Positions 26,527-27,268 of a stretch of 64,000 bases of DNA are shown one piece after another. The notes under the pieces were generated by a model. That model saw nothing but the letters and a program-made list of their open reading frames with translations, searched no databases and was not told the DNA's origin. Position numbers and translations under genes: made by a program. The DNA comes from Phycisphaerae bacterium (GTDB lineage Bacteria > Planctomycetota > Phycisphaerae > Sedimentisphaerales > Anaerobacaceae). Location: contig JAQTMR010000001.1 in NCBI GenBank assembly GCA_028714255.1, positions 186,001 through 250,000 of the forward strand. The letters run 5' to 3'. Position 1 is the stretch's first letter; each line of letters opens with the position of its first letter.

Positions 26527-26552
26527 GTAGGGGCGGACCTATGTGTCCGCCC
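26527..26552 (+). repeat. REP element, family 1 (GTAG + palindrome)
   Basis: GTAGGGGCGGACCTATGTGTCCGCCC; stem gggcggac/gtccgccc, loop ctatgt; 5' of the RAYT gene. Confidence 0.9.
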
Positions 26553-26609: not shown

Positions 26610-27155
26610 TTGAAATATAATCCGGACATCCATCATCGCCGGTCGATTCGATTAACAGGATATGATTATTCACAATCCGGATATTATTTTATTACCATTT
26701 GCACACGACAACGCCGGCTTCTGTTCGGAGAAATTAAAAAAGACCGGATGCTCTTGAATGATGCGGGCCAAATGATTGGTCGCTGGTGGAACGAATTAAA
26801 AAACAAATACCCCAATATCGAAATTGACAAATATGTGGCAATGCCCAATCATTGCCATGGCATCATATCTGTAAATGAAACGGGCGAACACACCGGTTCG
26901 CCCCTACAATCGGCATCCGCAGACAAATTTGTCTGCCCTTCAATATCTAAAATGATTCAGTGGTTTAAAACAATGACAACTAATGAATATACCCAAAATG
27001 TCAAACAAAACCACTGGAAACCTTTCGACGGCAAATTATGGCAACGCAACTATTACGAAGAGATTATCCGAGACGAAACATCGTTACAGCGTATTCGTGA
27101 ATATATCATTAATAACCCTGCCCAATGGCAGCAGGATAAATTATTCACCCCGTAG
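26610..27155 (+). CDS. REP-associated tyrosine transposase (Y1/IS200-like, RAYT)
   Basis: SIRLTGYDYSQSGYYFITICTRQRRLLFGEI...YVAMPNHCHGIISV: HUH-like 'NHCH' motif and RAYT N-terminal motif; flanked by REPs. Start may be TTG (26610). Confidence 0.9.
   Translation: MKYNPDIHHRRSIRLTGYDYSQSGYYFITICTRQRRLLFGEIKKDRMLLNDAGQMIGRWWNELKNKYPNIEIDKYVAMPNHCHGIISVNETGEHTGSPLQSASADKFVCPSISKMIQWFKTMTTNEYTQNVKQNHWKPFDGKLWQRNYYEEIIRDETSLQRIREYIINNPAQWQQDKLFTP
26882..26907 (-). repeat. REP element, family 1, inside the RAYT coding sequence
   Basis: GGGCGAACACACCGGTTCGCCCCTAC; reverse complement begins GTAGGGGCGAAC. Confidence 0.85.
26919..26936. repeat. 18-bp perfect palindrome inside the RAYT coding sequence
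   Basis: gcagacaaatttgtctgc; arms match the gcagac/gtctgc arms of the 3' REPs. Confidence 0.85.
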
Positions 27156-27183
27156 AAACTGACCTTTCTATTGGGACAGACCT

Positions 27184-27209
27184 GTTGGGGCAGACCTATG
27201 TGTCTGCCC
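27184..27209 (+). repeat. REP element, family 1 (GTTG variant)
   Basis: GTTGGGGCAGACCTATGTGTCTGCCC, 3' of the RAYT. Confidence 0.88.
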
Positions 27210-27242: not shown

Positions 27243-27268
27243 GTAGGGGCAGACCTATGTGTCTGCCC
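27243..27268 (+). repeat. REP element, family 1
   Basis: GTAGGGGCAGACCTATGTGTCTGCCC, 3' of the RAYT. Confidence 0.9.

Follow-up and report, generated by a model that had tools for sequence, protein, structure and literature searches.

Why would the gene of a transposase carry, within its own reading frame, the same kind of repeat that surrounds it? The question is raised by a 64,000-nucleotide stretch of a Phycisphaerae genome (hereafter the window), which encodes a REP-associated tyrosine transposase (RAYT, also called TnpAREP). The gene has REPs on both sides, and a first-pass annotation had reported two palindromes in its frame; both are present (Table 1), and the flanking REPs are of the same family.

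Table 1. Features of the RAYT locus, in window positions
Feature	Positions	Strand	Details
Upstream flanking REP	26527-26552	+	GTAGGGGCGGACCTATGTGTCCGCCC
RAYT / TnpAREP gene	26610-27152	+	181 aa; open frame 26610-27155; TTG start; stop 27153-27155
Hypervariable stretch, HUH motif to helix aC	26859-26951	+	residues 84-114; residues 92-102 pLDDT < 50
Complete in-frame REP	26882-26907	-	GGGCGAACACACCGGTTCGCCCCTAC as on + strand; GTAGGGGCGAACCGGTGTGTTCGCCC read on - strand; encodes GEHTGSPL
In-frame REP remnant	26917-26938	+	perfect 18-nt palindrome GCAGACAAATTTGTCTGC at 26919-26936; no GTAG foot; encodes SADKFVCP
Downstream flanking REP, GTTG head	27180-27209	+	stem 27188-27209
Downstream flanking REP	27243-27268	+	GTAGGGGCAGACCTATGTGTCTGCCC

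The reading frame of the host gene is intact. The 2.41 Mb genome has no second RAYT copy, and the gene, with REPs on both sides, has the setting by which RAYT/TnpAREP genes are recognized (single or few copies, GTAG REP flanks). Its protein carries the HUH motif N80-H81-C82-H83, the pair W144-Q145, and the Y motif Y165-I-I-N-N-P (YIINNP, 165-170). A Pfam match to Y1_Tnp (2.6e-10) and Foldseek matches of the AlphaFold model (pLDDT 83) to IS608, ISDra2, and the RAYT-REP complex 4er8 place it in the HUH single-tyrosine fold related to IS200/IS605 transposases. The best NCBIfam family is REP_Tyr_transpos (NF047646; 67.2 bits, E 1.4e-18), at a score under the curated cut-off of 80, possibly because of the loop insert described below. 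The only PDB sequence match to the protein was dismissed as chance. A coaE-like gene lies on one side and a glycosyltransferase-like gene on the other, both named from reading their translations.

The two palindromes encode residues 92-111 (GEHTGSPLQSASADKFVCPS), starting 8 residues past the HUH motif. The first had been read as a reversed GTAG-headed REP, which proved correct: it is a complete REP on the opposite strand, built like the flanking REPs as GTAGGGGC-stem-6 nt-stem-GCCC. The second had also been called a REP, and this holds for its stem and tail (GCAGAC...GTCTGCCC), which match the flanking REPs with 67% identity over 30 nt; lacking the GTAG foot, however, it is REP-like rather than a complete REP. 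It occurs once in the genome, and a loose pattern (GTAGGGGCN{10,24}GCCC) has seven matches in the 2.41 Mb, three of them at the RAYT gene. When the codons were recoded synonymously with the peptide held fixed, a stem as long arose in 306 of 20,000 trials for the first palindrome (1.5%) and in 172 of 20,000 for the second (0.9%). The RNA of this stretch forms two hairpins with a folding energy of -25.9 kcal/mol, shuffled sequences averaging -14.2 (z = -3.9); an Rfam search of the region matched no family. The presence of in-frame REP-derived DNA in the RAYT loop is thus confirmed.

This loop is where the protein is most variable. Among homologues, the stretch that follows the HUH motif ranges from 5 to 72 residues, and in the AlphaFold model of the window protein residues 92-102, with pLDDT below 50, fall between strand b3 (81-88) and helix aC (112-133). 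The peptide encoded by the REPs is accordingly predicted to form a disordered segment at the surface, between the HUH strand and the helix.

We surveyed 94 homologous entries, in which one gene (L075) appears twice under two loop definitions and phyla are unevenly sampled. Under a strict rule (GTAG-type head and a perfect stem of at least 7), 67 of the 94 entries, spread over many phyla, have an in-loop REP. Of the remaining 27 entries, 15 have loops shorter than 24 residues; the 12 whose loops reach that length include several with mismatched REPs. REP density reaches 7.9 per kb in the loop, compared with 0.08 in the N-terminal part, 0.32 in the C-terminal part, and 1.1 in the flanks; the loop value is some 25- to 100-fold that of the remaining coding sequence and 7-fold that of the flanks. 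Among loops of at least 24 aa, 68 of 79 contain a hairpin that codon shuffles matched in 5% of cases or fewer. The presence of REPs in the loop was not significantly associated with their presence in the flanks (Fisher p = 0.63); 17 of the 27 entries without an in-loop REP have REPs in the flanks, and 20 homologues with in-loop REPs have no others in the surrounding 700 nt or so. No forward in-loop REP has its TAG in phase, a bias that we do not use as evidence because the genes were collected as open frames, which makes such frame statistics partly circular. In other genomes, many of the ORFs that cover REPs elsewhere look spurious.

Most REP-free homologues have short loops and the filled loops are longer, which supports the suggestion of the first-pass annotation that the repeat family had inserted into its own gene. 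The same annotation held that the segment would be ordinary protein if close homologues without REPs carried the same peptide. Homologues with equivalent peptides do exist (VGADQCVCP...GEHTDSPLQ), and they share them because they too hold REPs. Forward, reverse, or double-footed REPs are translated in homologue loops as VGADLCVCP...GEHTGSPL, VGAGPRACP...GQPRGVAPT, VGAPPCGCP...GRPHGAAPT, and RGTLQRAPT. The further proposal of the annotation, a decaying copy, suits the footless second palindrome but not the gene, which is intact.

In-loop REPs also resemble the repeats of their own locus. Their identity to their own flanking REPs is 0.86; permuting the flanks lowers it to 0.56 (0 of 5000 permutations), and the difference persists inside the window's clade (0.87 versus 0.69; 0 of 10,000). 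Their stems are kept by paired changes. An alignment of 38 distinct canonical in-loop REPs has 99% of its stem cells paired, a percentage that is slightly favorable since the REPs were chosen by their heads and rows with evident misregistration were removed by hand; double-sided changes occupy 45 cells as against 11 in shuffles. Three stem positions each carry such double-sided changes in 13-18 sequences. Such covariation fits exchange with genomic REPs and selection for the hairpin alike and does not separate them.

The content of the loop probably turns over. Two homologues that are 78% identical outside the loop differ within it: the loop of L029 has 58 residues and includes REP-derived peptide, and that of L025 has 15, with REPs confined to the flanks of the gene. 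On a tree built without the loop, 33 parsimony changes separate canonical, double-foot, degenerate, and empty states. In L061 and L063, the frame breaks shortly past the in-loop REP; such breaks are expected if some events do not keep the frame, and these two genes are possible failed insertions.

Where homologue loops hold a paired array, its halves run forward then reverse in 24 of 24 cases, with a span of 59 nt or more. This is the inverted arrangement (GTAG ... CTAC) of REPINs (Bertels and Rainey 2011, PMC3116915), in pairs as short as 59 nt. The window pair as it stands is not a REPIN, with a complete reversed REP followed by a footless forward stem, an order seen in no other pair. In the Geobacter genome of homologue L017 (G484), many genomic REP pairs run forward then reverse and span about 58 nt. 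That genome has about 207 GTAG REP pattern matches in several families, together with several RAYT genes, and many of its inverted REP pairs have unlike halves (CAGAC with CGAAC stems).

The nearest relatives of the window gene, L009 and L010, are 79-82% identical to it outside the loop and carry forward-then-reverse pairs. On the simplest reading, the window pair probably arose from an inherited pair that was rearranged or partly replaced, which would have left the complete reversed REP followed by the footless forward remnant. A whole-genome scan of the sister genome G024 found no perfect REPs other than two within its RAYT gene (G024:C27:65521-65581; L069, which covers the same sequence region as L010); this gene carries an in-frame TGA. 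In G026, the same in-gene pair (G026:C50:19229-19289; L068/L009) is accompanied by a few singles. In the same-genus genomes G009 and G010, we found no RAYT and few REP-like sequences. A search of G009 for an empty site located the neighboring glycosyltransferase, with coaE and RAYT not beside it, and gave no clean empty site; no insertion event came to light in closely related strains.

We consider it probable that this RAYT is of the subclass 2.4 kind discussed below and that its b3-aC surface loop has acted as a landing site for REPs of the family that travels with the gene, through insertion and turnover. Local repeats, either REPs or REPINs (inverted pairs of some 60 nt), would be copied into the loop or exchanged there, whether through insertion mediated by the RAYT or through recombination with neighboring repeats. 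Events that break the frame would destroy the gene and be lost, and those that keep it would survive, being tolerated in a disordered loop that lies away from the fold. The protein would be unaffected by such REPs, and no role for the loop peptide is needed. New insertion does not account for every case, since related genes from different phyla share the pair VGADxCVCP...GEHTxSPL, and some loop content has been passed down with the gene. In G024, where intact REPs are found only inside the RAYT gene, the local pool cannot be today's source.

The recurrence of these peptide motifs among homologues is also what would be expected if the segment were ordinary protein sequence whose DNA is palindromic by chance. 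Synonymous recoding, codon shuffles, and the match to each gene's own flanking REPs contradict this, and the segment is absent from REP-free homologues; we reject it as having virtually no probability. Alternatively, the in-gene REPs may be kept for a function, limiting the expression of RAYT itself through hairpins in its mRNA or through DNA sites that the RAYT binds. RAYT binds such hairpins, as in 4er8, and both the stable twin hairpin in the transcript and the covariation that preserves the stems would suit this role. Continual exchange with genomic REPs would yield covariation as well, however, and the region has no Rfam family. The 27 entries without a strict in-loop REP, REP-flanked in most cases, further imply that autoregulation through an mRNA hairpin cannot be essential to the family, and we regard self-limitation as unlikely.

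Another possibility is that the in-gene pair is a protected master copy, shielded from loss by the coding frame, traveling horizontally with the gene, and seeding REPs in new hosts. If so, each new REP population would be founded by the pair within the gene. The best hint comes from G024 and its two intact REPs, with G026 close to the same state; homologues with REPs in the loop and none near the gene, and the sharing of one loop pair by related genes from different phyla, also point this way. The TGA in the G024 gene, however, means that the other copies there may simply have decayed, no donor event was seen, and genes without in-loop REPs are common. We find this proposal doubtful, and prefer to view the loop as a landing place.

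In-frame REP insertions have been described for TnpAREP subclass 2.4 by Quentin et al. 2018 (PMC6006769), a subclass that corresponds to group 4 of Bertels et al. There, too, in-frame REPs occupy the b3-aC region between the HuH and Y motifs, the gene is REP-flanked with WQ and YIxNNP motifs, and members are scattered over many phyla. The window RAYT has both motifs, the b3-aC insertion of variable length, and the in-frame REPs. Its HuH motif departs from the NH[IFV]H of the subclass, being NHCH in the window gene, L009, L010, and L012, while other homologues mostly have I, F, or V. The palindromes of the window differ as well in running reverse then forward, with the second one footless. Because in-frame REPs are already published for subclass 2.4, the window case is mostly ordinary, and its RAYT is best read as a new, partly worn example of the habit of this subclass.

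Palindromes of this kind are translated in other proteins as well. Di Nocera et al. 2013 (PMC3733652) described GTAG-tagged palindromes translated in frame in other genes, thought to lie in flexible linkers or loops; their hosts are uvrA, recB, DNA polymerase I, and others, whereas in the window the host is the transposase itself. Rickettsia palindromic elements, as that paper cites them, are likewise palindromic repeats in frame in ORFs; they are other repeats, with host genes unrelated to repeat mobility.

Four points are added here: in-loop REPs match their own flanks, their stems covary, paired arrays run forward then reverse, and in sister genomes the pair inside the gene makes up nearly all the intact REPs. 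We found no earlier statement of these in the open-access main texts searched. The importance of the single locus is modest. Together, however, the homologues give quantitative support, over many phyla, to a published and little-followed remark that a transposase gene repeatedly takes its own target repeats into frame, and they offer a way to test the origin of REP populations and the tolerance of proteins for mobile palindromes.

REP-derived coding sequence takes other forms in some homologues. In L022 (1501-2118), a second REP-encoded insertion (VGADPRVCP) lies between two strands well ahead of the HUH motif, in addition to the usual loop. In the loops of L013 (1325-1957), L016 (1501-2103), and L051, half-REP units form in-frame tandem multiples, as seen in the ADLCVCPEN and GEHIGQ repeats of L013 and the fourfold GPCACPD of L051.
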